From a virus, in IMG/VR virus record IMGVR_UViG_3300045996_002627, positions 1 through 29,440 of that record: a stretch of 29,440 nucleotides of DNA; one strand, written 5' to 3'. Shown here piece by piece: positions 2,837 through 22,828 of the stretch (the first letter of the stretch is position 1; each line of letters begins with the position of its first letter). Both the position numbers and the translations under genes were made by a program. The notes below the pieces were generated by a model, which was not told the origin of the DNA, did no database searches, and saw only the letters and a list, made by a program, of their open reading frames with translations.

Positions 2837-5233
2837 TTACTCTCCCGACAACCTCTTGATCGCCGTTACTCCAGCCGGCTTCACGCCAAAGAACGACTTG
2901 GGATCGAACGCCTGCTCGGGAATCGGCGAGATACCACCGATCGCGCCAGCCGCGAAGCCACTGAGGCCGGCACCCTGAGCAGCCGCGATCGTGGACATCA
3001 GCGCATTCGGACCCGAGAGCGCGAGCAGCCACGACACCAGATACTTCTTGCGCGCATCACCCTCCGCCCACTTGCCGAGGCCGTAGGCGCCGGCCGTTTG
3101 GGCAATGTTCAACGCGGTTCGGAGATCCGCCTTCGAGAAGGTGTGCCCGAGTTCATTGAACCCCTCGGCGAACACGTTGGTCGGCACCCGCTGGAACGGG
3201 AAGGCCGTGTCGATCGCCGTCTTGGCCTGGGGCGAGAGCGGTGACATGCCGTTGGTGAAGTTGCGATCCGCCGTCAGTAGGTAGCGATCGATGTTCTTCT
3301 GATCCACCCCCGCGCGCTTCAGCGCTTCCTTCGCCGTGTCGTCAATCGCGCCGATCACTTTGGTCGGGGCGAAGCGGCCGAAGTGCACTTCACCGGGATC
3401 CCGCTTCACCGGGGGCTCGCCGAGGTGCTGCCAGAACTTCTTGATGTTGGTCGGGGCGCGGAGCATTTCCTTCGCCGGAGCGAGCCGACCTTTCGACGCC
3501 GTGCCTTCGACACCCGCACGGACAGTTGACCCGAGCGAGGTGAGCAGGTTCTTCGGGATCGCGCCACCCGTGAGGAAGGCTTCGCGGCGGAGCGAGTTGG
3601 CGATCTTCAGTCCACCCTTCACGCGCGCCGGGTTGAGCAAGGCGGCGGGAGCGACTGCCCCACCAAGCCCACCCAGAACCGCATTCCCCATCCGCTCATC
3701 GTCATCTTCGCCCTGGGTGGCACCGTAGGCTGCTCCGGCCGCACCACCACCGAGGATCGCCATCAGCTTGGGAGAGGCGGCACCGCGCTCGGACTTGATC
3801 CGATCGAGGAGTGCCTGGGTCTTGTCGCTGACCTTGCCGTTCTCGGCGAGTTCACGCTCCGCCGCGCGCTTGATCCCTTCGACCGCGCGATCGGGGAGGC
3901 GCGAGGGGGTGTTGCCACTCTGCTTGCGGATGTTCTCCGGACGATCGCCCAACATCCGCGCCGCCTTCTCCGCCCCGAACTTGTCTCGGAGCAGCTTGGC
4001 GAGCTTCGCAGGGTCGTTGCCGGCTTCGATCCGGATATCCAGTTCGTCCACCGACATCCCCGCCCGCCGGGCCGCGCCCTCGGCACCGTATTCGGCCTTC
4101 ATCTGTGCGAGCGTCTTGGTCGGCTTGCGGGTGAAGCCTTCGAGCACACCCGACGTAGCTCCTGCCGGCGCCTCACGCTCCTTGGCGACTGCCGAGGGAA
4201 CGTCATGGGCACGGAGCGCTTCATCACCAGGGTTCGCGGAGGCCATTGGAGCCGGCGGCTGGTCAGTCTCCGCCTTCAGCGGCGCAGAATTTTTCGTCTG
4301 TTGCTTACTTCCGGTAAGCATGGCCTTGGCCCGCTCACGCGCGGCCTTCTCCTCAAGCCGCTGCCGCACCTCGCGATACGCCTTGTCCTCCGCCGCGCCA
4401 CTCACCCGGCTCGGACTGCGCCGCTCGACACCCCCATAGACCGGAGGACGCCCAGGGGCTTCCTTTCGTCCAGCCGCTGCAGCTTCGGCCGCAGCTTCCG
4501 CCTTCATCACCGCGTTCGCCGCGGAGGTAGCCGGGGGTGGCACCTCGGCCATACCAGCGCCCGTCTGAGGGGCCGTCGTAATCGGCTTGTCCGGAACTCT
4601 CATCGAGAACTGATTGGGCCTCTGACTGGCGCCTACGGGCACGCGCATGGCCCCAGGGCGCATGCTGCTCCCAGAGGTGGCCGCAGCCGGCGGCACCGGA
4701 GGCTTCGAGGTGGCAAACACCGCCCCACCCGGCGCCGGCTTGATCGGCGGCTGCATGAGGGGAATGTCGGTGCCGGTCTTCGCAGCCGAGGTGAGCAGAC
4801 CGCCCGTAGTCGTGGCCTTGCCGGCACCCGCCGCTCCCTTGGCCATCTTCCCGGCCTTCCCCAGCCCCCGCAAAAACGGCAGGAACGTCTCAGTCGCCAA
4901 CACGGCGCCGCGACCGGCCTTTCGCTCGGTGCTCTCGTCGCTCTTGACGATCGAACTCACCCCGGTGGGGTCGAGCGCATCCAGCCCTGCGCCCACACTC
5001 GACTGCTGCGCGAGGGTCGAAGCCAGCGCCGCCGGATTCAGGTTGCTCGGGTTCTTGAGGATGTTCCGGCCAGCCGACTTGGCCAGCTCCCACATCCCCG
5101 TGCCCTGATCCTTCAGCTCACTCCCCGCGCCCTTGACCACTTCGGCCGCACTCCGCCCCCAGGAGCCCTTGGCCGGCTCCTCGATCTCATACTTCGATCC
5201 ATCCGGCAGCTCAACCTGATACTTCTGAGGCAT
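2837..5233 (-). CDS. Large Ala/Gly-rich virion protein, likely ejection (internal virion) protein
   Basis: This gene encodes 798 residues. The N-terminus YQVELPDGSKYEIEEP is the short beta-hairpin-like leader seen at the start of many phage tail and internal proteins. The middle is low complexity, rich in Ala, Pro, Gly and charged residues, with predicted helical and coiled-coil parts (for example around EDKAYREVRQRLEEKAARE). Residues about 735-780 are strongly hydrophobic (LVSWLLALSGPNALMSTIA followed by Gly/Ala-rich GFAAGAIGGISP) and could insert into a membrane. Its size, composition and position at the distal end of the virion operon after the nozzle-like protein resemble podoviral internal core or ejection proteins that form a DNA conduit through the cell envelope. 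No lysozyme or transglycosylase motif was found. It is separated from the next upstream gene by 0 nt. Confidence 0.65.
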   Translation of the reverse strand: MPQKYQVELPDGSKYEIEEPAKGSWGRSAAEVVKGAGSELKDQGTGMWELAKSAGRNILKNPSNLNPAALASTLAQQSSVGAGLDALDPTGVSSIVKSDESTERKAGRGAVLATETFLPFLRGLGKAGKMAKGAAGAGKATTTGGLLTSAAKTGTDIPLMQPPIKPAPGGAVFATSKPPVPPAAATSGSSMRPGAMRVPVGASQRPNQFSMRVPDKPITTAPQTGAGMAEVPPPATSAANAVMKAEAAAEAAAAGRKEAPGRPPVYGGVERRSPSRVSGAAEDKAYREVRQRLEEKAARERAKAMLTGSKQQTKNSAPLKAETDQPPAPMASANPGDEALRAHDVPSAVAKEREAPAGATSGVLEGFTRKPTKTLAQMKAEYGAEGAARRAGMSVDELDIRIEAGNDPAKLAKLLRDKFGAEKAARMLGDRPENIRKQSGNTPSRLPDRAVEGIKRAAERELAENGKVSDKTQALLDRIKSERGAASPKLMAILGGGAAGAAYGATQGEDDDERMGNAVLGGLGGAVAPAALLNPARVKGGLKIANSLRREAFLTGGAIPKNLLTSLGSTVRAGVEGTASKGRLAPAKEMLRAPTNIKKFWQHLGEPPVKRDPGEVHFGRFAPTKVIGAIDDTAKEALKRAGVDQKNIDRYLLTADRNFTNGMSPLSPQAKTAIDTAFPFQRVPTNVFAEGFNELGHTFSKADLRTALNIAQTAGAYGLGKWAEGDARKKYLVSWLLALSGPNALMSTIAAAQGAGLSGFAAGAIGGISPIPEQAFDPKSFFGVKPAGVTAIKRLSGE

Positions 5234-6139
5234 CTACGACACCCGCTTCACACGTGCGCCCGGCGGCAGGTTCGGGAACAACTGCTTCACTTCTTCGTCG
5301 CTCAGATACGCATCGCCCGGCTTGGTGCCGTTCCCCTCGACCTTGGGGCTGTTGGGCGGCAGCAGCCCACTCGCTACGGCCTGCTCACGCACTCGGCTGT
5401 AAACCTGATCGATCGCCGCGTGCACCTTGGCCGCGTATTCCTCGTCGCTCTCGAACATCCCCTGAGAGATCGACTTCGCCACCATCTGCGCTTCCTTCGC
5501 GGCCTGCTGCTTCAACGTCCCAGGCAATTCCTGGAGCTTCGCGTCGAGCGCCTTCTGTCGCCGCTCGGCATCCTTCTGCGCTCGCTGCTCACGCTGCTCG
5601 GCTCGCTTCGCTGCGTCTTGCGACAGCTTCAACTGCTCCCGCTGCATTGCCTGATCTTCCTTCGCCCGCGCCTCCTGCGCTTTCCGGATCTCCTCCTGCT
5701 GTTTCAGCTTCAACTGCTCTTGTTCAAACTCGTGCTTGCGGTAGATCCGTGCAGTCGGATCCTTCTCATCCGGGGTGAGCTGATCACTCCCCTCGAACTC
5801 CTGAATATCCGCGAGCACCTGGGGATCAATAATCCGATCCCCCGGCTTGCGCCGCGCCGCACCGGCCGAATACCGCGCCCGCTTGTTGTCGATCTCTCGC
5901 TCGCGCTGCATGCGATCCCGCTCCGCCGCCGTCTGCGCCTGCACCGCTTTCCGATACTCCGCCTGCTCAGTCAAATTCTTCGCGCGGTTCTCCTCATCGG
6001 CCCGGTTCGATCGCTGCTGCTCACTGGCCCGTGCGACATCGAGCAACTGCCCCATCTGTCGCTCCAGGTTGCGCTTTGCCAACAGCGCCTCCATCGACTG
6101 ATCCTGCTCGGCCCGCGCTGCGATCCAATCCATGTTCAT
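5234..6139 (-). CDS. Coiled-coil virion protein, ejection-type
   Basis: This gene encodes 301 residues, most of them long charged helices rich in Gln, Glu, Lys, Arg and Ala. Residues about 20-220 read as an almost uninterrupted coiled coil (for example EFEQEQLKLKQQEEIRKAQE, then DAAKRAEQREQRAQKDAERR). The last 60 residues (SKVEGN.. KPGDAYLSDEEVKQLFPNLP) form a distinct small acidic tail ending in basic VKRVS. There is no signal peptide or membrane segment. The gene abuts the 798-residue gene directly and lies 3 bp from the upstream gene, so the set is likely co-translated. Such helical proteins occur among podoviral internal core proteins; function is inferred from place and shape only. Confidence 0.6.
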   Translation of the reverse strand: MNMDWIAARAEQDQSMEALLAKRNLERQMGQLLDVARASEQQRSNRADEENRAKNLTEQAEYRKAVQAQTAAERDRMQREREIDNKRARYSAGAARRKPGDRIIDPQVLADIQEFEGSDQLTPDEKDPTARIYRKHEFEQEQLKLKQQEEIRKAQEARAKEDQAMQREQLKLSQDAAKRAEQREQRAQKDAERRQKALDAKLQELPGTLKQQAAKEAQMVAKSISQGMFESDEEYAAKVHAAIDQVYSRVREQAVASGLLPPNSPKVEGNGTKPGDAYLSDEEVKQLFPNLPPGARVKRVS

Positions 6140-6142
6140 GGT

Positions 6143-6994
6143 CTATCCTCGGTTCGAGAGATCGCCTTCATCTTCATCCAGCAATCGTGCAGTCGGCGGC
6201 TTCACGAACGGCGTGACGCCAATGCCACCGCCCGCACTTGCTACCTGTGGCTTCGTGCCACCCTGGCTCAACGCTTCAATCGCCTGAGCGATCCGATCCT
6301 GGAAACTCCGCTGCTCCTTGGCCGCGCCATAGTCGTTGATCGCACTCCCGGCCATCGCCCCAGCGCCGAGAATGTTCTCCATCACGCCCGCGCCCTTGAA
6401 CTCCGGTGCTCCAATCCGCTCGATCGCCGGCATCTTGTCGAACTTCTCGCCACCCATCAGTCCGGCCATCGCCTGCCGATACATCTCGTCGCTCGCCGCG
6501 CGGCCCTCGGCACCAAACGCACTCGGCCGGCTACCCCCCATGAACTTGATCGGCGTGACCCCCTTGGGCACTCCGCCCACGGTCACATCCTTCATGTTCT
6601 TCCCAAGCGCGGCCCGTCGAGCGAGATCGTAATTCTCCTTCCGCGATCCTTGGGCAAACTCGCGCTGCTTGAGATCCAGCCCGGCCCGTTCCTGAAGTGC
6701 GTCCTCGGCATTCCGCGCCTCACGCAACTTGAACAGTCCCTCGTCCTGGCGTGCAACATTCTCAGCCTCACGCCCCTTTTGCGTGCCCGCAGCCAGTCCA
6801 CTCAGCGCAGGCGCCGCCGCCCCCAGCCCCTTGCCGATCTTTGACAACAGACCACCAGCACCCGCCATTGCTCCACCCGTGGCCGCTGCCCCCGTGGCGC
6901 CCAGCCCCAGAAGGCTCCCGCCCCCGGTGAAGGGTGCCGCCACAATCGGCGCCGCCACGCTCAGCACTTTTCCGAGTCCTGACCAGAATCCCAT
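6143..6994 (-). CDS. Gly/Ala-rich pilot-like virion protein, ejection-type
   Basis: This gene encodes 283 residues. The first 75 residues are hydrophobic and glycine-rich (MGFWSGLGKVLSVAAPIVAA, then GGAMAGAGGLLSKIGKGLGA), a pattern shared with DNA pilot and ejection proteins that insert into membranes. Residues about 75-150 are helical and charged (GREAENVARQDEGLFKLREA), and the remainder mixes helices with Gly/Pro linkers, ending in an acidic DEDEGDLSNRG. The architecture of a membrane-active N-terminus followed by helices resembles microviral H and podoviral ejection proteins, but I see no specific motif. It is the third gene of the distal virion cluster, with 8 bp to the upstream gene. Confidence 0.6.
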   Translation of the reverse strand: MGFWSGLGKVLSVAAPIVAAPFTGGGSLLGLGATGAAATGGAMAGAGGLLSKIGKGLGAAAPALSGLAAGTQKGREAENVARQDEGLFKLREARNAEDALQERAGLDLKQREFAQGSRKENYDLARRAALGKNMKDVTVGGVPKGVTPIKFMGGSRPSAFGAEGRAASDEMYRQAMAGLMGGEKFDKMPAIERIGAPEFKGAGVMENILGAGAMAGSAINDYGAAKEQRSFQDRIAQAIEALSQGGTKPQVASAGGGIGVTPFVKPPTARLLDEDEGDLSNRG

Positions 6995-13610: not shown

Positions 13611-13681
13611 GACTACCTACTCCTGTATCGGAGGTGCCCGCCGGGACTTTGGACTCCAGCGAACGAGTGGATGGTGATCGT

Positions 13682-13727
13682 AGAAAAACCTCTCCCTGGC
13701 CCGATCACCGGAAGCCAAGGAGAGGTT
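13682..13727 (-). terminator. Intrinsic terminator after the decoration-like gene
   Basis: On the minus strand a 14-bp stem (AACCTCTCCTTGGC with GCCAGGGAGAGGTT, one G-U wobble) with a 13-nt loop is followed directly by a run of T residues (TTTTTC). It lies about 18 nt after the stop of the gene at 13745 and is a strong rho-independent terminator by inspection. Confidence 0.82.
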
Positions 13728-13744
13728 CGAGTTGTCACTCAGCC

Positions 13745-14215
13745 TTAGCCGAGTGAGTCGCTGACCGAGGGGTAGCTCACCTGGATCGTGGCGAAGTTCG
13801 CCGCGTCCACCGAGCGGAACACCGCGCCGAGCACCTGATCACCCGCGACCACGGTGTCATCGACACGACCCGCGGTTCCGTCGATGTAGACCTTCGAGTT
13901 GTCCACGATACCCGCATCGCACGACACCGAGCAGGTGCCGTGAATCAGATACCAACCGAACTCGCTGGTCGAATCGACCGCCGCCTGGGCAATCGCCACC
14001 GGGCCAATCGCGTTCGCGACCACCAGGGTGCTCAGACCCGCCTCGTCATACGTGACCACCGACCCCGCGACCGTGGAGCCCACGCCCGTGAGGTAGATGT
14101 ATTCGTTGCCGGCGGCGTCGAAGCCGCGCGTCAGAAGGGGGCAAGCCTTGGCCGAATCCACCGCAGTGGTATCGCCCTGCACATAACCCCCAGGATATCC
14201 AACAAGCTGTGCCAT
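13745..14215 (-). CDS. Head decoration-like protein
   Basis: This gene encodes 156 residues from ATG 14215, with AGAGG about 8 nt upstream; an in-frame start at 14248 would begin in the intergenic hairpin region and is rejected. The sequence is small-residue and beta-rich without a membrane segment (MAQLVGYPGGYVQGDTTAVD, NEYIYLTGVGSTVAGSVVTY, AAVDSTSEFGWYLIHGTCSV, VLGAVFRSVDAANFATIQVS). Size, fold type and position directly after the major capsid gene fit a capsid decoration or cementing protein. Two cysteines occur in GTCSVSCDAG. It shares a transcript with the capsid gene, separated by a stable hairpin, and the transcript ends at the terminator that follows. No specific family could be recognised. 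Confidence 0.65.
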   Translation of the reverse strand: MAQLVGYPGGYVQGDTTAVDSAKACPLLTRGFDAAGNEYIYLTGVGSTVAGSVVTYDEAGLSTLVVANAIGPVAIAQAAVDSTSEFGWYLIHGTCSVSCDAGIVDNSKVYIDGTAGRVDDTVVAGDQVLGAVFRSVDAANFATIQVSYPSVSDSLG

Positions 14216-14249
14216 GTTCGTAACCTCTGATGAAACTTGGTTGAACAAT

Positions 14250-14273
14250 GGGGTGAGGATTACTCCCCACCCC
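14250..14273 (-). other. Stable hairpin with GNRA tetraloop between capsid and decoration genes
   Basis: Minus strand: GGGGTGGGGA, loop GTAA, TCCTCACCCC, a 10-bp stem with one wobble and a GNRA-type tetraloop. It is not followed by a clear T run, so it looks more like an mRNA stabiliser, processing site or partial terminator than a full terminator. Confidence 0.6.
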
Positions 14274-14283
14274 GTTGCGTCTA

Positions 14284-15219
14284 CTACACCTCGGCGAGCA
14301 CGAACACGCGGCTACGCGCGCTCACGACAGCCTGAAGCATCGTGTAAATGAAGAACCGGAAGCCGTTGCCGTTGTCGATCTCCTGCGTCTCGCCCTTCTG
14401 GCGCTTCGCACCCTTGTAGAACAGGAGCTTGAAGACCTTGGGGTTGAGGCCGTAGATTCGCGCCGTCGCGTGCTGCGAGAAGATCATCTTCCCGGTCTTG
14501 AACGCGATGTTCTTGCGGCCGGCGTCGAAGGCATCCTTGCCGACATACCGCTGGAGCGTGCTCTGCGTGCCCTCGTAGACCGCGTGCGAGTCCGCATCGG
14601 TCACGAACAGGGACGGCGCCGAACCACCCGAGCCCTTGCTTGCCTGATTCCAGGCCAGCGTCAGCTTGGCGATCATGTCGGTGCCCGCCGCGAGATACGT
14701 GCCGGCGATGTTGCGCCAGAAGGTATCCAGGGTGGAGTTGATGCCACCCACGGTGCCGGTGCCCGCGTCCGCGATGAGGTTCTGGAGGCCGAGGAAGCCG
14801 TTGGTGCTGGTCGAGAAGAGTTTCTGCTCGATCAGGTCGTCATGCGTCTCGAAGGCGTTGGTGAGCAGCGCCTTGACGAAATCGACCTTCTGGTTCTCCT
14901 CGGGGTTCTTGGCGTCGTCGCCCTTCGACCACACAACCGGAACCGAGAGCTGCGCGGGGTCGTAGACCGCGGCCGTCAGCACGTCGGTCTTGCCCATCGC
15001 CATCGGATCCAGGTCATTCACGAGGAACTGCGCACCGGGGTTGCGCCGATAATCCAGCGGGACTTCGATCTGCGGACCACCAGGGATGGTCTTGATCGCT
15101 CCCACCGATTCCAGCTCGCGCATGAACGCGCTCTCCGCCCACTGGTTGGCGGGCTTCCGCGCTTCGGCAAGCACGGCGTTGTAGCTGGAAGCCACAATCT
15201 GCGAAATGGTCAGTGCCAT
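14284..15219 (-). CDS. Major capsid protein
   Basis: This gene encodes 311 residues, normal for HK97-fold phage capsid proteins. The N-terminus MALTISQIVASSYNAVLAEA is a helical arm; the centre IEVPLDYRRNPGAQFLVNDL and TDVLTAAVYDPAQLSVPVVW resemble the E-loop and P-domain strands; VDFVKALLTNAFETHDDLIE fits the spine helix; PSLFVTDADSHAVYEG and ARIYGLNPKVFKLLFYKGAK fit the A-domain. A long N-terminal propeptide is absent, and a scaffold-like protein is encoded elsewhere in the operon. ATG 15219 has an AGGTGA site upstream. The gene has its own promoter candidate about 170 nt upstream and an intervening terminator, which suggests separate control for high capsid output. Assignment rests on pattern and context. 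Confidence 0.85.
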   Translation of the reverse strand: MALTISQIVASSYNAVLAEARKPANQWAESAFMRELESVGAIKTIPGGPQIEVPLDYRRNPGAQFLVNDLDPMAMGKTDVLTAAVYDPAQLSVPVVWSKGDDAKNPEENQKVDFVKALLTNAFETHDDLIEQKLFSTSTNGFLGLQNLIADAGTGTVGGINSTLDTFWRNIAGTYLAAGTDMIAKLTLAWNQASKGSGGSAPSLFVTDADSHAVYEGTQSTLQRYVGKDAFDAGRKNIAFKTGKMIFSQHATARIYGLNPKVFKLLFYKGAKRQKGETQEIDNGNGFRFFIYTMLQAVVSARSRVFVLAEV

Positions 15220-15391: not shown

Positions 15392-15421
15392 ACTATGGCA
15401 TGAGTCTTGCGCGGATGTCAA
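15392..15421 (-). promoter_or_regulatory. Leftward promoter for the capsid unit
   Basis: Minus strand: TTGACA (15421-15416), 18-bp spacer, CATAGT (15397-15392), within the string ATGCCATAGTG. The core is identical over 12 nt to the promoter at 24633-24662, which also has an 18-bp spacer. The -35 overlaps the stop of the zinc-ribbon gene. The expected RNA start is near 15385, giving a leader of about 165 nt before the capsid gene. Confidence 0.65.
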
Positions 15422-15762
15422 ATCCAGCGTGAAAGATGCTTGTCGGTCGGGCCACACCAGCCGTTCTCACTCAGCTCACAGCCGTTGGGAAACATGTCCG
15501 ATCGATGCGCTGCCAGCACCGCTTTCAACTCGGTGCGGCTATATACCTTCCGCCCCGGCTCGATGTGCTCCATGACCATGCCCCCTGGAATGTCATCCGG
15601 GATCACACCCCCCACCCGCTTGAGGATCGCTTCGGGGAACGTCTCCCCGCCGCACACCTCACACGCGATCTCACTGATCTCCGTGCTCCAGGCGAGTTTC
15701 TTGGTGACGTGGTGGCAGCTCAGACACCCCAGTCGCCACTCTTTCATGATCATCCGCATCAC
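15418..15762 (-). CDS. Zinc-ribbon protein, unknown role
   Basis: This gene encodes 114 residues. A zinc ribbon is formed by CLSCHH (C-x2-C) and CEVCGG (C-x2-C) about 20 residues apart at the N-terminus, reading as two zinc knuckles. The second half (VIPDDIPGGMVMEHIEPGRK then VYSRTELKAVLAAHRSDMFP) is a region I associate with small conserved phage proteins of unknown function found near capsid genes; two further cysteines occur at the C-terminus (NGCELSENGWCG). It could be a nucleic-acid or protein-binding accessory factor. It is 1 bp downstream of the methyltransferase gene and its stop overlaps the -35 of the capsid promoter. I do not assign a function. Confidence 0.65.
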   Translation of the reverse strand: MMRMIMKEWRLGCLSCHHVTKKLAWSTEISEIACEVCGGETFPEAILKRVGGVIPDDIPGGMVMEHIEPGRKVYSRTELKAVLAAHRSDMFPNGCELSENGWCGPTDKHLSRWI

Positions 15763-16338
15763 TCACCTCTTGGTCAACGTCGCAATCATGTCCAGCGCGG
15801 CCTCTTTGTAGTTCGTCAGCGCAAACTGCCGATACTCCTCATTCCGCGACAACAGGTTCTCGTTCATGTTGTAGCCCCAAGCGGCAACAAAGTCACACGC
15901 GAATCCCTGGGCATTCCACTTGCGATCGGTATGCGGGGCGTTGTTCTCCCGCCAGTCCTTGCTCAAGTAGAAGAACCAGAACTCGCTCACCGGGGGCCAC
16001 TGGTGGGTAGGGTCGCCATACGCCCGACAGCTCGCCCAATGCGGGACGATGATCTGGCACGTTCCACCGGGAGTCAGCACGCGATACAGTTCATTCACAA
16101 ACGCCACCCGCTGATCCGCGGTGAGGTGTTCGATGAAGTGACTCGCGTGGGCCTCACCGACGCTCCCATCTGCCCAGGGCCACGGGGTCTTGGTGAGATC
16201 GACAACGAAATCGACCTTCCCGTCGAAGCCGTATTGATCCACCCCCTGAAACCCCTCACGCTTATTCGGCCCACACCCGAAGTCCAGCTTGAGTGGTTCC
16301 TTGGCCTTCTCGATCTTCAGTCGCTTTGCTTTACCCAC
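15763..16338 (-). CDS. Class I SAM-dependent methyltransferase
   Basis: This gene encodes 191 residues from GTG 16338, chosen because AGGAGG sits 4 nt upstream and the longer in-frame ATG start at 16410 would overlap the glycosyltransferase gene. Motif I is KLDFGCGPNKREGFQGVD with the Gly-rich loop and an acidic residue ending beta-2; DFVVDLTKTPWPWADGSVGE fits motif II; ASHFIEHL and ELYRVLTPGG, then CQIIVPH, give the later strands, as in Methyltransf_11-type enzymes. The substrate is not identifiable: such proteins methylate small molecules, sugars, lipids or proteins. It follows the glycosyltransferase gene after 8 bp, so methylation of a transferred sugar is a reasonable inference, not a demonstrated function. 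Confidence 0.8.
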   Translation of the reverse strand: MGKAKRLKIEKAKEPLKLDFGCGPNKREGFQGVDQYGFDGKVDFVVDLTKTPWPWADGSVGEAHASHFIEHLTADQRVAFVNELYRVLTPGGTCQIIVPHWASCRAYGDPTHQWPPVSEFWFFYLSKDWRENNAPHTDRKWNAQGFACDFVAAWGYNMNENLLSRNEEYRQFALTNYKEAALDMIATLTKR

Positions 16339-16346
16339 GTGTCCTC

Positions 16347-17063
16347 CTACCAGACGATATCCGTCTCCACCTCGTAGTGCCCGACTCGCACGTCGCAATC
16401 GATCGCGCACCGATACCCGTGCTTCCGCGCATCCGACCAGAAGTAGAGATCCTGCGTCCCAATCCCCTCACTCCCGCTCGCCACGGTCTTGAACCACGGC
16501 TTTCTCAACTTCCCATCCTTGAACATCTTCAACCGCCACAGGTTGAACCCCATGCCGGTGCCAACACACTCGACCAGCTTGCCCGGCTGCGGCACCTGGG
16601 GTCGGAAGTTCACCACTGGATCCTTCGGATCCCCCCAAATCTGCGCCACCCCGCTCGGCCCCTTGGTGAAATACAACCCACCAATGCACGCAAACTCGGG
16701 GTGCTTCTCCATCTGTTCGAGGAGCTTGAGCACGCCATCCGCGGGGGGCAAGTTGTCGTGTTCGATCGTCAACAAATACTCCCAGTCCCTCAACTCGGGA
16801 TGCGCGAGAATTTGCTCAATCACCGTGCTGTAGGCATCGCCCACTTCCATGCCCTGCGCCAAGATCCGAATCACCCCATTGTTCGGCGGAAACATCAGGT
16901 TCCAATGCGACAGCGCCGCTTTCGCCGGCAACATCGCCCCCGCCGGCAGGATCACAATAATCCTCTGCTTCTTCCACGAGCTGCCTTTGATCAACCGTGA
17001 TTGGGTCTGGGCAAGATCCTTATTGTGGACCCCACCAAAGTCGCTCACCAACTGTGGCTTCAC
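16347..17063 (-). CDS. Glycosyltransferase, GT-A type
   Basis: This gene encodes 238 residues from GTG 17063, with AAGGGG about 7 nt upstream. The Rossmann-like N-terminal strand is KQRIIVILPAGAMLPAKAAL, the metal/nucleotide-sugar site is probably LLTIEHDNLPPAD (EHDN in place of the usual DxD), and CIGGLYFTKG, GTGMGFNLWRLKMF and GIGTQDLYFWSDARKHGYRC match the later acceptor and catalytic segments seen in phage glycosyltransferase 2-like proteins; the ED/QD element is the likely catalytic base region. It would transfer a sugar from a nucleotide donor to an unknown acceptor. It sits between the fibre module and the methyltransferase gene in the virion operon, which hints that the acceptor is a virion protein. 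Confidence 0.75.
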   Translation of the reverse strand: MKPQLVSDFGGVHNKDLAQTQSRLIKGSSWKKQRIIVILPAGAMLPAKAALSHWNLMFPPNNGVIRILAQGMEVGDAYSTVIEQILAHPELRDWEYLLTIEHDNLPPADGVLKLLEQMEKHPEFACIGGLYFTKGPSGVAQIWGDPKDPVVNFRPQVPQPGKLVECVGTGMGFNLWRLKMFKDGKLRKPWFKTVASGSEGIGTQDLYFWSDARKHGYRCAIDCDVRVGHYEVETDIVW

Positions 17064-17064
17064 G

Positions 17065-17337
17065 CTACGACCCCTTCAAGTAATCCGGGAGATCGATATC
17101 ACCCGCGGCCAGCGTGAACGTCCGCGCCGCGCCGAACGCCTGCACCGCTGCTGTCACTTTCTGTCGCCGTGTCTGGAGCGTATCCCCCGCGGCAATCGCA
17201 ATCGGCACGAACTCGGTAGCCACGGCTCCCGCGGTGTCATCCCGCAAAAACGCGACCTTTGCTGTCAGCGTCATTTGACCACTGACACCTGTAGGCTCCA
17301 AGCTGTCATAGCTCAACACATACGCCTTATCCGCCAT
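17065..17337 (-). CDS. Hypothetical 90-residue protein next to the fibre gene
   Basis: I do not recognise this protein. ATG 17337 has AAGGAGGG a few bases upstream. The sequence begins MADKAYVLSYDSLEPTGVSG, then alternates beta-type segments (QMTLTAKVAFLRDDTAGAVA) with a helical middle (TLQTRRQKVTAAVQAFGAAR) and ends DLPDYLKGS. No cysteine, membrane segment or catalytic motif is present. Its placement 9 bp after the repeat fibre gene and 2 bp before the glycosyltransferase suggests a small structural or chaperone role for the fibre. This is context only. Confidence 0.55.
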   Translation of the reverse strand: MADKAYVLSYDSLEPTGVSGQMTLTAKVAFLRDDTAGAVATEFVPIAIAAGDTLQTRRQKVTAAVQAFGAARTFTLAAGDIDLPDYLKGS

Positions 17338-17346
17338 GATCCCTCC

Positions 17347-18762
17347 TTAGCTGTGTTCAGCGAACAGCCTCATCGCCAGGGCGCGATTGAGGTTGCTCGA
17401 ACGAATATACGCCGTGTCGGTAAGATTGACCGACCCCGGCATCGCCGTCGAGAACGAGGCACTGAAATACCCGTGATCCCAGTTCTGCGTCTCATTGGTG
17501 TCCGCGTTCGCTCCCGTGAGCACCTGCCCAGGGAAGAACTGCATCGACCACGTTTGGGCCGCGCCGGTTGTCCTCATCCAGAATCCCACCAGATACTCAC
17601 CCGGCACCAAGCTGATCGTGCCCACCGGGATCGTCCGATGGTGGTAGCCGGTCATACCGCCCACCTGGGTCGAGTTCGAGCCCGCCGTGCCGTTCGTCCA
17701 GCTTCGCGTTGCGCTCGCTGAACTCGCAAGGCTGGCCGTGGATCCGCTCAGCGTGTAGAACCCAATGCTGATTGAATAGCCACCCGAGCTTTGAGTCGCC
17801 TGGGACATCGACGCCTGGAAGTCCATCTTGGTGACGTTGATGAACGCCGGCAGGCTCAGATAGAACAGCGACAGCGCCGCGTTGCTCGTATTACTCGACG
17901 CCGCGAGGCCAGGATACGCGAGATCCACCCGATAGTTGCTGCGCGCGTGATCGCGAATCGAGAGGGTGGCGCTGTTGCCATTCACGCTCTGGCTGAGGGT
18001 CACACCGCCCATGCCAACAAACTGGATCTGGCTCCCTACCAACCCCGTGGTGCCAGCCGTATTGCCTTGTGTCGAGATTCCCGCAGTAAACCCTGCGCCC
18101 GCCCCGAGATTCGGCGCCGACACGGTGATCGTAATGCTCTGGCCGTCCGTGGACCCCGAGAGCGTGATGTTGTTACCACCAGCCAGCACCAGCCGGCTCC
18201 CAACCAGCCCGGTATCCCCTGCCGTGTTCCCGATGTTCGTCAGCCCGGCGGAGAAGTTTCCTCCACCCGCCGCGCCCGAGATGGTGATCGTCGCCGACTG
18301 ACCATTGACGGATCCACTGAGGGTGATATTGTTCCCGCCCGCCAACACCAAGTGGTTGCTCACCAGACCCGAGGTGCCGAGGGTATTCCCCAGGTCGCTC
18401 AACCCGGCGGTCAACCCGGTCATCTGTGTCTGGGTGCTCTGGTTGAACGCGCTCACGGTGATCGTCATCGACCCGCCGTTGGTGGATCCACTCAGCGTGA
18501 CATTGTTCCCACCAGCAAAGATCAACCGTCCGGTGACTGATCCTGTATCTCCCGCGGTGTTCCCACCCGAGATGCCACCACCAGCAAACCCTCCGCCCGG
18601 CCCACCCGCGGCCCCCGAAATCGTCACACTCTGGCCGTTCTGGCTCAGGGTGATGTTGTTACCCCCAGCGAGAAACAGCGTGCCTGTGGACACCACGGCC
18701 AGCGCCCCGGAGGTATTTCCCCCGAGGCTCACAGCCCGAATGCGATTCAGCGTGACAGGCAT
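17347..18762 (-). CDS. Repeat-built tail fibre or head-fibre protein
   Basis: This gene encodes 471 residues. The first 270 contain five copies of a roughly 55-residue unit, at about residues 11-50, 64-104, 121-163, 174-216 and 227-270. Each contains a GNT...G..G motif, a strand ending in AGGNNITLS, and an S-x-T-I-T strand. The fifth copy is degenerate (FVGMGGVTLS). The last 200 residues are different and globular (SLFYLSLPAFINVTKMDFQA, SWTNGTAGSNSTQVGGMTGY, YLVGFWMRTTGAAQTWSMQF) and could be the receptor-binding or cap domain. The repeats are rich in Ser, Thr, Asn and Gly, typical of trimeric beta-structured fibres. The gene shares one base with the upstream gene's stop and is followed by the glycosyltransferase and methyltransferase genes. 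The virion-surface assignment is from composition and repeats. Confidence 0.75.
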   Translation of the reverse strand: MPVTLNRIRAVSLGGNTSGALAVVSTGTLFLAGGNNITLSQNGQSVTISGAAGGPGGGFAGGGISGGNTAGDTGSVTGRLIFAGGNNVTLSGSTNGGSMTITVSAFNQSTQTQMTGLTAGLSDLGNTLGTSGLVSNHLVLAGGNNITLSGSVNGQSATITISGAAGGGNFSAGLTNIGNTAGDTGLVGSRLVLAGGNNITLSGSTDGQSITITVSAPNLGAGAGFTAGISTQGNTAGTTGLVGSQIQFVGMGGVTLSQSVNGNSATLSIRDHARSNYRVDLAYPGLAASSNTSNAALSLFYLSLPAFINVTKMDFQASMSQATQSSGGYSISIGFYTLSGSTASLASSASATRSWTNGTAGSNSTQVGGMTGYHHRTIPVGTISLVPGEYLVGFWMRTTGAAQTWSMQFFPGQVLTGANADTNETQNWDHGYFSASFSTAMPGSVNLTDTAYIRSSNLNRALAMRLFAEHS

Positions 18763-19349
18763 TAGGTGAAGTAGGTATACGTCACGCCGTCACCGTTGAC
18801 GGTCGTGTCAATGTTCACGTCAGCGAGGTTGTCGATCTCCAGTTCGATCGCATCCCCAGGGAAGAGGGGCACACCGCGTCTTGTGCCCAACGCAGCCACC
18901 ACCGTTGCCCCACCCACCGTGATCACCCCGGTGTTGTCCGTCTCCGCGGTAATCACCACCCGTTTGCACGGCGTCGATCCGGCCAGCGCTTCGGCCGTGC
19001 CCGCGCTCGCCACCGTCTTCCGTCCATCTCCAATCCCTGTGATGTCGTGCCCGACCCGCCCGATGATGTTCGAGCCCGTGGCCAGCACGATCAGACTCTT
19101 CAGATCCTCCAACCCTTGAGTCGCCCGCCGGAGCTTGGCCGAGATCGTCCCAGCCGCCCCCGCAGCCACAATCGCATCCGCAATCGCGCCCTCGGTCGCA
19201 TCGGCACCATCAGCAATCGTGATCGGACCACCACCACCCCCGCCCGGCTGGGTCATCGGATCCCATTCGAGCGTGATCGAATTCCAGACATACTGGAGCG
19301 CCCACTCGACGTGGAGAATCGGACGGGAGTAAGTGGTGTCAATCGCCAT
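18762..19349 (-). CDS. Virion structural protein, probable fibre-associated
   Basis: This gene encodes 195 residues. The N-terminus SRPILHVEWALQYVWNSITL is followed by a glycine run (QPGGGGGGPITIADGADATE) and then helical and beta segments. The last 65 residues (VVITAETDNTGVITVGGATV, LGTRRGVPLFPGDAIELEID) look like a small beta-sandwich of the kind used in phage structural proteins near fibres. ATG 19349 lies 1 bp from the next gene. It shares its last base with the start of the repeat fibre gene, indicating translational coupling. It may link the fibre to the virion; no family can be named. Confidence 0.6.
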   Translation of the reverse strand: MAIDTTYSRPILHVEWALQYVWNSITLEWDPMTQPGGGGGGPITIADGADATEGAIADAIVAAGAAGTISAKLRRATQGLEDLKSLIVLATGSNIIGRVGHDITGIGDGRKTVASAGTAEALAGSTPCKRVVITAETDNTGVITVGGATVVAALGTRRGVPLFPGDAIELEIDNLADVNIDTTVNGDGVTYTYFT

Positions 19350-19350
19350 G

Positions 19351-19566
19351 CTACGGCCTCACGTCGCTCTTGATCGCCATGATGGCCTCTTTGACCGATT
19401 CTTCGATCGCCGCGACCACCTGGGACTCAGAGACGAAATACCCAATCCCTTTACCCCGCGCTCGGCTCACGATCTCATCCACCAGATCGCGCTCGCTCTG
19501 GGCACCAGGGCGCATCTTCACAGTCGCGCCATCGTGACGCCCGACTGCCAGAAAGAACTCACTCAT
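19351..19566 (-). CDS. Hypothetical 71-residue protein
   Basis: I do not recognise this protein. ATG 19566 has a GGGGGT stretch about 9 nt upstream. The sequence MSEFFLAVGRHDGATVKMRP is followed by a helical acidic/basic part (DLVDEIVSRARGKGIGYFVS; QVVAAIEESVKEAIMAIKSD). No membrane segment or known motif is present. It sits between the scaffold-like gene and the fibre-associated gene, 1-25 bp from each, within the virion operon. Confidence 0.55.
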   Translation of the reverse strand: MSEFFLAVGRHDGATVKMRPGAQSERDLVDEIVSRARGKGIGYFVSESQVVAAIEESVKEAIMAIKSDVRP

Positions 19567-19591
19567 GCTCTACCCCCTGATTGTCGCACGC

Positions 19592-20680
19592 CTACCGCGG
19601 CAGGTTCTTGATCGAATCCCGGATGACATCGGCGATGTCGCGATCCTCATCCTTCGGCTCACCCGAGCGCTCAACCCCCGACGACTTCACCACCGCCTGG
19701 GCCGCAGCCGGCTTCGCCTTCATCTCAGCGATGATCTCCGCGCGCAGCTTGTCCTTCTCGATCTTGCCCGCCTCTTGGAACTTCTGCGGGACCGTGCGGA
19801 TATACGCTTCCTCGATCCCCATCCGCTCATTGCCCGGCGCCATCATCAACGCCTTGATGTCCTTCTCGTGCTGGGCATAACCCGGCCACTCCTTGCGATA
19901 GCGCTGGAGATCCACCTCCGCCCGCTGCTTCGCATCCGCCCAGCGGGTGCTCTGCTCGAACGCGGTAGCCACCTTGCCATACTTCTGCTCCATCTGATCC
20001 GCGATCTGCTTGGTCAGCTTTTCGCTCAGCGTCTTTTCGAGCGTGGACCCATGCCACGTGAGCAGATTCGTCAGCCCCTCGTCATCGTAGTATTCCAGTC
20101 CCTCGGCCGTCTTCTGGTTCGGGCCAGGGCGATCCGCCGGCACCGCGGGCTGCTGCCCTGCACGCTGGAGCATCTTGGCATACCGTTCATCCTGCAACAG
20201 CAGCTCGACGAACTTCTCGGGATCTTCTTCACTCAGCGCAATCGCCCTGAGCGCCTGCTGGATCTCCGCATCCTTCGCCCACTCATACTGCTTCCACTCG
20301 GCTTCCTGCTTGGCAATCGCTGCCTCCCGCTCCTGCCACGCCTTCTCCTTGGCCGTCCACTCCTCCAGCGCCTTCTGGTGCTGATTGCGCGTGCGCGTCA
20401 ACACCGCCTGATGCCGATGGATCGCGATATTCCCCCGCATCGCCGGGTTCTTCTCGCGGATCTCCTTCTCAATCCCCGCGAGTTCGGCTTCCTCAGCTTC
20501 CTCCTCGGCGGTCTTCTGCGCTGGAGCGGGCGGCTCATTCCCCTCGCCACCCTCACCCATCGAGCTGACGATCGCCTCGCGGATCGGATCGCCCTCACCA
20601 CTACCACCGCCCATGCCACCCGCACCGCCATCCGCGGCCGGCATGTCGTAGAACAACCCGTAGAACTTGTGCTTGAACAT
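19592..20680 (-). CDS. Scaffold-like protein
   Basis: This gene encodes 362 residues from ATG 20680, directly after the portal stop, with GGAGAAG in the portal's last codons. After a Gly/Pro-rich leader (residues about 10-60) it is largely charged helix: EEEAEEAELAGIEKEIREKN, EEWTAKEKAWQEREAAIAKQ and EKLTKQIADQMEQKYGKVAT form coiled coils, and the C-terminus is charged (GEPKDEDRDIADVIRDSIKN). An acidic, helical protein encoded next to the portal and upstream of the capsid gene is the usual profile of a scaffolding protein, which guides shell assembly and then leaves. The capsid gene lies about 4.5 kb downstream, with the fibre module inserted between. No catalytic triad of a prohead protease was seen. 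Confidence 0.68.
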   Translation of the reverse strand: MFKHKFYGLFYDMPAADGGAGGMGGGSGEGDPIREAIVSSMGEGGEGNEPPAPAQKTAEEEAEEAELAGIEKEIREKNPAMRGNIAIHRHQAVLTRTRNQHQKALEEWTAKEKAWQEREAAIAKQEAEWKQYEWAKDAEIQQALRAIALSEEDPEKFVELLLQDERYAKMLQRAGQQPAVPADRPGPNQKTAEGLEYYDDEGLTNLLTWHGSTLEKTLSEKLTKQIADQMEQKYGKVATAFEQSTRWADAKQRAEVDLQRYRKEWPGYAQHEKDIKALMMAPGNERMGIEEAYIRTVPQKFQEAGKIEKDKLRAEIIAEMKAKPAAAQAVVKSSGVERSGEPKDEDRDIADVIRDSIKNLPR

Positions 20681-22828
20681 TTACTTCTCCGTCGTTGGGA
20701 GGGAGCTGTCTCGGGATCCCTCGGCTCCCGTTTCTGCTTTCTCATACCGCCGGTTCAACGGCTGCACGACCGGCGCAGGGCCGGGGTGGGAAGTATCCGG
20801 GGCACCACCCGGCTGGCCTTCCGCGCCAGGAACTACCGGGGGCACCGGAGGCGGCAACACGGCTGCACTCTGAATCAGCTTCACCGCGGCGGCAATATCC
20901 TGCTCGGTGATCGGCGTGTTCGATTTGTTGATCAATGCCACCGCCATCGGCGACATCAGATCCTCGCCCTTGACCGTCGCCGAAATCTTCGGCCCCGGCG
21001 GCTGCGGGGGCTGCGGCTTCGCCATCGCCTTGGTCGGATCCATCCCATGTGCTTCGAGGAGCTTTCTCACCAGCGCCGCGGGGTCCACCAGGGGATCCTT
21101 CCGCAGCAGCTTATACAGATTCAACGCCTCGGCTCGCTGCTGACTCACATCCAACCGGAGCTGGCTGTCCGGGCGAATGCTGAAGATATACTCGCCCGCG
21201 ATCAGATCCTTGTTCCACTGCTTGAGCGCCGCGGCCCCATCTTCCCCGACCACATACGCATAGTCGGTGTCGTCCGCGAACATCTGCATCAACTGGCCAA
21301 CCCCCGCCGCGATCTCCAAGAAGAACCGCGCGACCCACTGCTGCTCATACGCCAGCCGCACGTCATTCGCGCCCTTCATCTCTCTGACTTCAGTCGCCGT
21401 CGTCTCGCCCGGTGTCGTCACGCCCTGCTGCATGGCGCCCATCGACCACGCTTCATCCAGATCCGCCTTGATCACCTTGTCGAAGTTCCAGTTCTCGGGC
21501 GGATAGTGGGCTCGCGCCACCTCACCGATCGCATTCGCACCCGGCCCGTTCATCGGGATCATGTCCTGCCACTTCCCGCGCCGGAGCTTATCCCCAATGA
21601 TCGCGTCCACCTGATTCACGTCGAACCAGCGCAGCGGCATCGAGTGATCCCTCTGCCGCACCATCTGGGTCCGCGACTTGATCAACTCCCTTACCTGCGG
21701 CCGGCCCACTTCCGAGTCAGACGGCGGGATCGCCATGTCCGAGATGTGCGCGATCGTGCCCACCTTGAGCGGATAGGTCGTCATCCCCACCCAGCGCCCG
21801 GTCGCCGGATCCTTCTTCTGCCACTTGAAGTCCTCGTCCACGACCTTGGACTTCTCACCCCGACCCGTCTCGACCAGCACGATTCGCTTGATCTTTCTCG
21901 GATCCTTCTCGTTCGGATCGAACGTGTGCGGGTGGTAGAACAGCTCGCAGTATTTGATATACGAATCAAACGGCTTCAGATTCGGGTTTTCATTGATCAA
22001 CAACCACTCTTCGTCGTTGATCTGCACACCCTCGGTGCCTTCCGGCACCCACTCGCGCCGGATCGCCTCGGCGAGCGGCAGATACCCCTCGCGGCCCAAA
22101 AACGACGCCTTCTGCCAGTCCGTGCCGACGAACTCGATCGGCCAGAGGAAGTGGAGCAAGCTCACCCGCTCCGCCTTGTAGCACTCGTAGATCGGCATCG
22201 GCAGCATCTCGGGAGCCGGCGCATCGGGCACGATCTCCCCCTGCTTTACCGGCACCTCACCACCACCCTCGGCAAAGGGTGCTGGTGATCCCGCCCCACC
22301 CTGCACGCTCACGTCAGGGAGCGGAGCGACCGATGTGCCTTCCACCTGGGATCCACTCGTCAACATCTGGCCCGGATCTTGCGCCGGAGGGAGTGCCGCC
22401 GCCATCCCACCGTCAAGCGGCTTCTCCTCGAACTCGGCCTCGTAGCTCACCATGCAGATCATGATCCCCGTGGCGTTGATCAAATCCCCCAGGCACTCGT
22501 TCATCACATGCTCGGCGTGCACCTTCTCGGTCAGCTCGAAGTTGAGTGCCGCGGCAAACACACTGGTCGCCGCCGCCCACTCCGGACGCCGCGCCTTCAA
22601 AATCACCTCGGGCACCTGGAAGAACAACTGGCTCTGCTTGTTCTTGGTCTTCGACCAGTCCGCCGGGATGTTCACCGTGTCTTCGCTCGGTGTCCCTTTG
22701 AACGGCTTGCCGCGCCGATAGCTGACGTTATCCTGGAGCGTCGGGCGCTTCTCCTGCTTCACCTGTCGGCAGGCATTCACCCGGCCCCACCACGCCTCGG
22801 CACTGAGCGGATCTTTCATCTTCGCCAT
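20681..22828 (-). CDS. Portal protein
   Basis: This gene encodes 715 residues from ATG 22828, with AGGAG about 8 nt upstream. The N-terminal half (WWGRVNACRQVKQEKRPTLQ, FFQVPEVILKARRPEWAAAT, FELTEKVHAEHVMNECLGDL) and the middle (VSLLHFLWPIEFVGTDWQKA, KVGTIAHISDMAIPPSDSEV, RELIKSRTQMVRQRDHSMPL) follow the pattern of large phage portals; a long helix with TATEVREMKGANDVRLAYEQ fits the portal stem/crown region. The C-terminal 60 residues are Pro-rich and probably disordered. Portals form the dodecameric channel at one capsid vertex for DNA packaging and exit. It is preceded after 3 bp by TerL and followed immediately by the scaffold-like gene. The call rests on gene order and sequence character. 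Confidence 0.85.
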   Translation of the reverse strand: MAKMKDPLSAEAWWGRVNACRQVKQEKRPTLQDNVSYRRGKPFKGTPSEDTVNIPADWSKTKNKQSQLFFQVPEVILKARRPEWAAATSVFAAALNFELTEKVHAEHVMNECLGDLINATGIMICMVSYEAEFEEKPLDGGMAAALPPAQDPGQMLTSGSQVEGTSVAPLPDVSVQGGAGSPAPFAEGGGEVPVKQGEIVPDAPAPEMLPMPIYECYKAERVSLLHFLWPIEFVGTDWQKASFLGREGYLPLAEAIRREWVPEGTEGVQINDEEWLLINENPNLKPFDSYIKYCELFYHPHTFDPNEKDPRKIKRIVLVETGRGEKSKVVDEDFKWQKKDPATGRWVGMTTYPLKVGTIAHISDMAIPPSDSEVGRPQVRELIKSRTQMVRQRDHSMPLRWFDVNQVDAIIGDKLRRGKWQDMIPMNGPGANAIGEVARAHYPPENWNFDKVIKADLDEAWSMGAMQQGVTTPGETTATEVREMKGANDVRLAYEQQWVARFFLEIAAGVGQLMQMFADDTDYAYVVGEDGAAALKQWNKDLIAGEYIFSIRPDSQLRLDVSQQRAEALNLYKLLRKDPLVDPAALVRKLLEAHGMDPTKAMAKPQPPQPPGPKISATVKGEDLMSPMAVALINKSNTPITEQDIAAAVKLIQSAAVLPPPVPPVVPGAEGQPGGAPDTSHPGPAPVVQPLNRRYEKAETGAEGSRDSSLPTTEK

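Follow-up and report, generated by a model that had tools for sequence, protein, structure and literature searches.

A fibre-tip domain, a glycosyltransferase, and a methyltransferase form a portable, apparently obligate gene module in uncultivated phages

We describe a gene module in which a fibre-tip domain is accompanied by a glycosyltransferase (GT) and a methyltransferase (MT). Judged by sequence, the three form a portable, apparently obligate unit in otherwise unrelated uncultivated phages. We put at about two in three the probability that the fibre tip is glycosylated by GT and that the sugar is then methylated by MT, a reading whose chemistry and target we infer from the genes. The starting point was a virus record of 29.4 kb (29,440 nucleotides), the whole of which is here called the window and whose virion genes lie on the minus strand.

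The virion genes run in the order terminase-portal-scaffold-p71-p195-fibre-p90-GT-MT-zinc-ribbon-like-capsid-p167 (Table 1). As originally predicted, the fibre, p90, GT, and MT genes stand in tight succession within 15763-18762. All four are on the minus strand, separated by tiny gaps of 9 nt (fibre-p90), 1 nt (p90-GT), and 8 nt (GT-MT, with the MT start at GTG 16338). MT and the next gene are 0 nt apart, and this zinc-ribbon-like gene is a fifth tightly spaced gene, between MT and the capsid gene. On the other side, p195 and the fibre overlap by 1 nt. Protein-family profile searches returned no family match for p195 and no significant one for p71. Some relatives encode weakly similar proteins of 80-94 aa in the p90 slot (phmmer against a small database: L021, E 3e-4; L014, E 0.006), and p90 is poorly conserved. 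At the DNA level, no close relatives of the window were found among phage records. Two ORFs on the plus strand, at 4205-6844 (879 aa) and 19565-22288 (907 aa), oppose real virion genes and look like typical GC-rich shadow ORFs.

The capsid terminator had been placed after the cassette, which holds only in the sense that it lies beyond the capsid gene: strong hairpins follow the capsid gene and p167, and the capsid transcript probably ends at the second of these, at about 13681-13729. A promoter and terminator scan of the region stayed at shuffle level, and its best-scoring promoter-like site, before the capsid gene (15421-15392), is no evidence of a promoter.

Table 1. Features of the virion region of the window.
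Feature	Coordinates	Strand	Basis
Intrinsic-terminator-like hairpin after p167	13681..13729	-	Fold of 13611-13745, z -3.0; stem then TTTTTCT
Hairpin GGGGTGGGGAGTAATCCTCACCCC directly after capsid gene	14249..14283	-	Fold z -4.4; weak T tract
Major capsid protein, 311 aa, backbone	14284..15219	-	NF033394 E 1.8e-42; phrog_9953
Zinc-ribbon-like protein, 114 aa, backbone gene adjoining cassette	15418..15762	-	Weak Zn_ribbon match; kept in L004
MT, class I SAM-dependent methyltransferase, 191 aa, GTG start	15763..16338	-	PF08241, phrog_6636, motif I
GT, GT-A glycosyltransferase, 238 aa, soluble	16347..17063	-	Alignment A4, AF2 model
p90, small protein between fibre and GT	17065..17337	-	Similarity in same slot of some relatives
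Fibre, 471 aa: repeat shaft (residues 1-273) and C-terminal tip domain	17347..18762	-	ORF, repeats, composition
Tip domain, fibre residues 274-470, proposed acceptor	17353..17943	-	Profile match, model
p195, putative virion protein upstream of fibre	18762..19349	-	ORF alone
p71, small ORF between scaffold and p195	19351..19566	-	ORF alone
Putative scaffold, backbone	19592..20680	-	Position; 23-41% identity to pre-capsid gene of relatives

The block had been proposed to be an insertion between the scaffold and capsid genes, and this agrees with its relatives. In L004, the nearest backbone relative (terminase 64%, portal 56%, capsid 64%), scaffold is followed by a gene for 202 residues, then by the zinc-ribbon gene, a pair of short ORFs, and the capsid gene. 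This stretch contains no fibre, GT, or MT; the L004 record ends inside the capsid gene, and the finding covers that locus. One of these short ORFs before the capsid gene is GIY-YIG-like by eye. Because the zinc-ribbon-like protein is kept in L004 (55% identical) without GT or MT, its gene belongs to the backbone and not to the cassette. Ten more capsid relatives, among them records of 49, 57, and 99 kb, likewise had no GT in the sequence examined. As these capsid relatives run from scaffold to capsid without GT or MT, the fibre-p90-GT-MT block seems to have been added in this lineage.

The GT-A fold assigned to the first enzyme is supported by its AF2 model (pLDDT 90.6), which matched STIV A197 (Z 20.0), the LH3 GT domain (Z 17.2), and SpsA (Z 14.2). 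A197 was the best match by both structure-search programs, with 2.2 A rmsd over 170 residues at 15% identity. Across the 64 sequences of alignment A4, E101-x-D103 (DxD-like), D205, and H229 are invariant; by analogy, E101 and D103 would be the acidic metal-binding motif and D205 the catalytic Asp. The window GT had no Pfam GT match, and 26 of the 64 relatives matched the GT2 profile PF00535 with E of at most 0.1, the lowest being 3e-4. Matches of GT to chlorite dismutase were dismissed as noise. Maximum hydropathy over 19 residues was 1.5 for the window GT and 0.76 for MT, and neither has a membrane segment.

For the second enzyme, the class I methyltransferase call was borne out by PF08241 (Methyltransf_11; 25.0 bits against a cut-off of 21.2). 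MT also matched phrog_6636 (E 3e-16), and motif I (lDlGcG), the glycine-rich SAM motif, is conserved in 79 aligned sequences. Translation probably begins at the GTG, which stands behind GGAGGA, leaving the longer ORF start at 16410 unused. In one relative, a 427-residue protein (L054:11354-12637) combines a divergent GT and an MT in one chain and adjoins a normal cassette. This fusion supports a single pathway and, together with the operon, suggests that the substrate of MT would be the transferred sugar. An apparent tip-GT fusion in L016 proved to be a frameshift, with the second half of the tip in another frame.

The fibre itself is Ser/Thr/Asn-rich and repetitive, as had been noted: these residues make up 32-34% of it, compared with 9-22% of other virion proteins, and it carries four diverged repeats of the form GGNN(I/V)TLS...TI(S/T), at residues 33, 84, 142, and 195, which are not tandem at the DNA level. 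A profile built iteratively from the C-terminal 200 residues of long genes upstream of GT matched a β-rich tip domain of ~200 residues in 75 loci, the window tip among them (E 5e-25). Tips are 12-34% identical between loci, GTs 60-79%, and fibre shafts vary freely; because the shafts are variable and the tip is kept, it is the tip, not the Ser/Thr repeat shaft, that is the constant partner of GT. Searched by short patterns, the window tip alone found no relatives, and these were recovered with group alignments A5 and A6. The tip has no Pfam family (the only Pfam match of a tip member, PKD-like at E 0.007, was dismissed), and its profile matched no solved structure by sequence. Its model is of fair quality (pLDDT 67); the best structure matches had Z of 11.3-11.7, compared with 6-7 at the end of the list, and were the central fibre of mycobacteriophage Douge, the Bxb1 tail tip, and a 201-residue capsid protein of cyanophage A4. 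Several tip positions are Ser or Thr in 80-93% of the aligned sequences, which is non-specific because tips are Ser/Thr-rich overall. We also observed a second Ser/Thr-rich protein of ~210-240 aa between the tip fibre and GT in L013, L038, L043, L049, L052, L067, L075, L076, L084, and L086. It often has a motif like AW(L/I)xA at its C-terminal end and is possibly a second fibre or decoration protein.

The association of the three parts was examined from each side. With GT as the query, 80 loci from viral contigs were recovered at 59-78% GT identity. Their flanking genes were spread over 43 and 128 phage families, with portal, terminase, and capsid represented by several families, and no other gene family was shared by more than seven loci. 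A Ser/Thr/Asn/Gly/Ala-rich protein of at least 200 aa lay within two genes upstream of GT at 60 of 66 loci but beside only 36 of 587 control genes. For 99 distinct GT loci, MT was downstream of GT in 85/85 of those with at least 2 kb of downstream sequence, and a tip-domain fibre was upstream in 80/83 of those with at least 3 kb upstream. Searching from GT says nothing about reciprocity, and we therefore used MT as the seed as well and found GT in 67/67 and the tip in 54/55 loci. With two tip groups as seeds, GT lay within 6 kb in 76 of 78 tip loci, and most loci whose contig runs on far enough downstream for a judgement carried it (L159 is a 6 kb contig). As these seeds were taken from GT loci, a wider, more distant tip superfamily without GT could exist. 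Three GT loci had no upstream tip, namely, L057, in which it lies just downstream, and L080 and L085, in which none was detected; the MT-seeded L242 likewise had no upstream tip. L156 was discarded as a case of a tip without GT, since GT was found elsewhere on its contig. The enzymes thus do not lie far from the fibre in relatives: the median tip-GT distance is 166 nt, and that between GT and MT is 24 nt. In Mantel tests, GT and tip distances were uncorrelated (r 0.01, p 0.42), which counts weakly because the tip alignment is poor; GT-MT (r 0.29) and tip-MT (r 0.22) distances were correlated.

Within the phage collection, the close GT relatives were three records, all from Manatee Spring, and plasmids gave no GT match. 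Among contigs of 84,980 species genomes there were only two GT matches, both in candidate-phyla metagenome-assembled genomes (MAGs) and both also with the tip. These contigs, L094 and L095, were binned into Magasanikbacteria and Yanofskybacteria MAGs, and L095 also has MT; they are probably phages or misbinned contigs, and they hint that the module has a broad range of hosts. A jumbo-sized phage contig of 447,763 bases (L018, IMGVR_UViG_3300009545_000018) carries the cassette too, and upstream of it lie two fibres, of 1135 and 1282 aa, that both bear the tip. In four loci, GIY-YIG homing-endonuclease-like genes are inserted between GT and MT (L039:10687-11472, L089:10781-11731, L114:7502-8215, and L148:9937-10671), making the cassette itself a target of selfish elements.

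Some relatives carry sugar-nucleotide genes in the cassette. In about nine loci (L045, L059, L060, L136, L158, L160/L161, L218, L231/L233, and L246; the L158 contig ends before MT), an RmlB-like gene, detected with the RmlB of L160 as the query, occupies the exact position between GT and MT. The four compared with profiles, those of L045, L060, L136, and L160, matched dTDP-glucose 4,6-dehydratase TIGR01181 with E from 1e-73 to 1e-80 and scores under the equivalog cut-off. A gene like that of dTDP-4-dehydrorhamnose reductase (RmlD) adjoins GT in about three loci (L033, L038/L128, and L047). These genes are the best pointer to the transferred sugar, which is probably a 6-deoxyhexose with a dTDP-linked donor. 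The window cassette has no RmlB-like or RmlD-like gene, and so its phage would use host dTDP-sugars.

Taken together, these data bear out part of the original prediction of a methylated sugar on the fibre or capsid. Virion decoration is well supported by the association, the enzyme assignments, and the deoxysugar genes, whereas the constant partner is the tip and not the repeat shaft or the capsid. The GT gene, in the virion operon, adjoins its proposed structural target, the fibre. The cassette would then be a self-contained unit of fibre maturation. The fibre would bear a β-sandwich tip domain, and a cytoplasmic GT-A enzyme would transfer a sugar, probably a 6-deoxyhexose, onto Ser/Thr of the tip; the donor dTDP-sugar would come from the host or, in some relatives, be made with the phage RmlB/RmlD-like enzymes. 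MT would then O-methylate the transferred sugar, and the finished fibre would enter the virion, where the capped sugar may tune adsorption, stability, or recognition. The analysis establishes the gene order, the near-obligate company of tip, GT, and MT, the folds, and the presence of sugar-nucleotide genes within the operon of some relatives; we infer what GT and MT catalyse, which sugar is used, where it is attached, how the steps follow one another, and what the phage gains. We hold only tentatively, at less than even odds, the broader idea that a mobile tip and its own modifying enzymes are exchanged among unrelated phages, that the tip works only once glycosylated and methylated, and that this is a widespread, undescribed route to a non-protein receptor-binding part.

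An obligate linkage to a receptor-binding domain is likewise predicted if what GT and MT modify is a glycan on the host surface, or the precursor of one, and the tip consequently stops binding debris and cells already infected (superinfection exclusion); masking of the tip's receptor would then be why the enzymes accompany it. Phage glycosyltransferases altering O-antigen are known and provide a precedent, and the RmlB/RmlD-like genes would fit LPS sugars too. We nevertheless consider this unlikely. The cassette sits in the virion operon, and it does not resemble a Gtr-type seroconversion module (P22 gtrABC-like), in which membrane-anchored enzymes and a flippase adjoin the GT, as GT and MT of the window lack a membrane anchor and only the tip fibre is conserved nearby, with no other constant partner. 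Moreover, GTs are 60-79% identical and tips 12-34%, yet different tips should see different receptors, and the two matches among the species genomes, both on contigs with a tip, show no lysogenic-conversion pattern.

It is similarly improbable that GT and MT decorate another virion protein (the capsid, p90, or decoration proteins) and are merely co-inherited with the fibre: capsid and structural families differ between loci while the tip is constant, although mycobacteriophages are reported to glycosylate capsid and tail-tube proteins (PMC12363180) and in the cluster J mycobacteriophage Redno2, GT, kinase, MT, and more GTs directly follow the capsid gene. That GT and MT are hitch-hikers or selfish cargo, functionally unconnected to the fibre, seems highly implausible, for despite the GIY-YIG homing endonucleases inside the cassette of some phages (L039 and L089, and by sequence L114 and L148), co-occurrence in fixed order is near complete (85/85, 80/83, 67/67, and 54/55).

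Documented cases of glycosylated structural proteins come from few phages, and the module is present in well over a hundred uncultivated phages that are unrelated to one another. If tip glycosylation and methylation is the correct reading, virion glycosylation would be common and predictable from sequence, with its likely substrate named, and the module would offer a small, testable three-gene system of two enzymes paired with one fibre-tip domain. It also gives a candidate function to families now filed as unknown, the phrog_1574-like GT and the tip. Full-text searches, which covered few subscription papers, found no description of the tip-GT-MT module.

Several known systems resemble the module in part. 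Podoviridae sp. ctKR88 (MW202524, Manatee Spring) is a member, in which a tip fibre, GT (62%), and MT (57%) are arranged as in the window; it differs from the window in an extra methyltransferase before GT and further GT-annotated genes upstream, and its cassette genes are annotated only as "has synthase" and methyltransferase. In Paenibacillus phage PG1, an MT homologue (36%, E 8e-15) comes directly after the tail fibre gene, and neither GT nor the tip domain was detected in that region. In the cluster J mycobacteriophage Redno2, gp14 is a distant GT homologue (profile E 6e-9, ~21% identity) in a head operon that runs from the capsid gene to gp14, gp15 (kinase), gp16 (annotated methyltransferase), and further GTs. 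Unlike the module, Redno2 has a kinase and several extra GTs, its gp16 has no MT-profile match, and the tip domain was not detected in the 14.6 kb examined. STIV A197, the closest solved fold to GT, is a viral GT proposed to glycosylate the virus's own coat (PMC10551542), but it comes from an archaeal virus and its acceptor is only proposed. Mycobacteriophage virions are reported to be glycosylated on capsid and tail-tube proteins (PMC12363180), and in Che8, Corndog, and Myrna, each phage's structural proteins are reportedly glycosylated by GTs that it encodes itself (Freeman et al. 2023, cited in PMC12363180). The window resembles these in that phage GTs would act on the phage's own virion proteins; their targets are capsid and tail-tube proteins, whereas its module has a near-obligate fibre-tip partner and an MT. 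Virion self-glycosylation is already known, and the module would be a variant of it, in which GT and MT are paired with a fibre tip.
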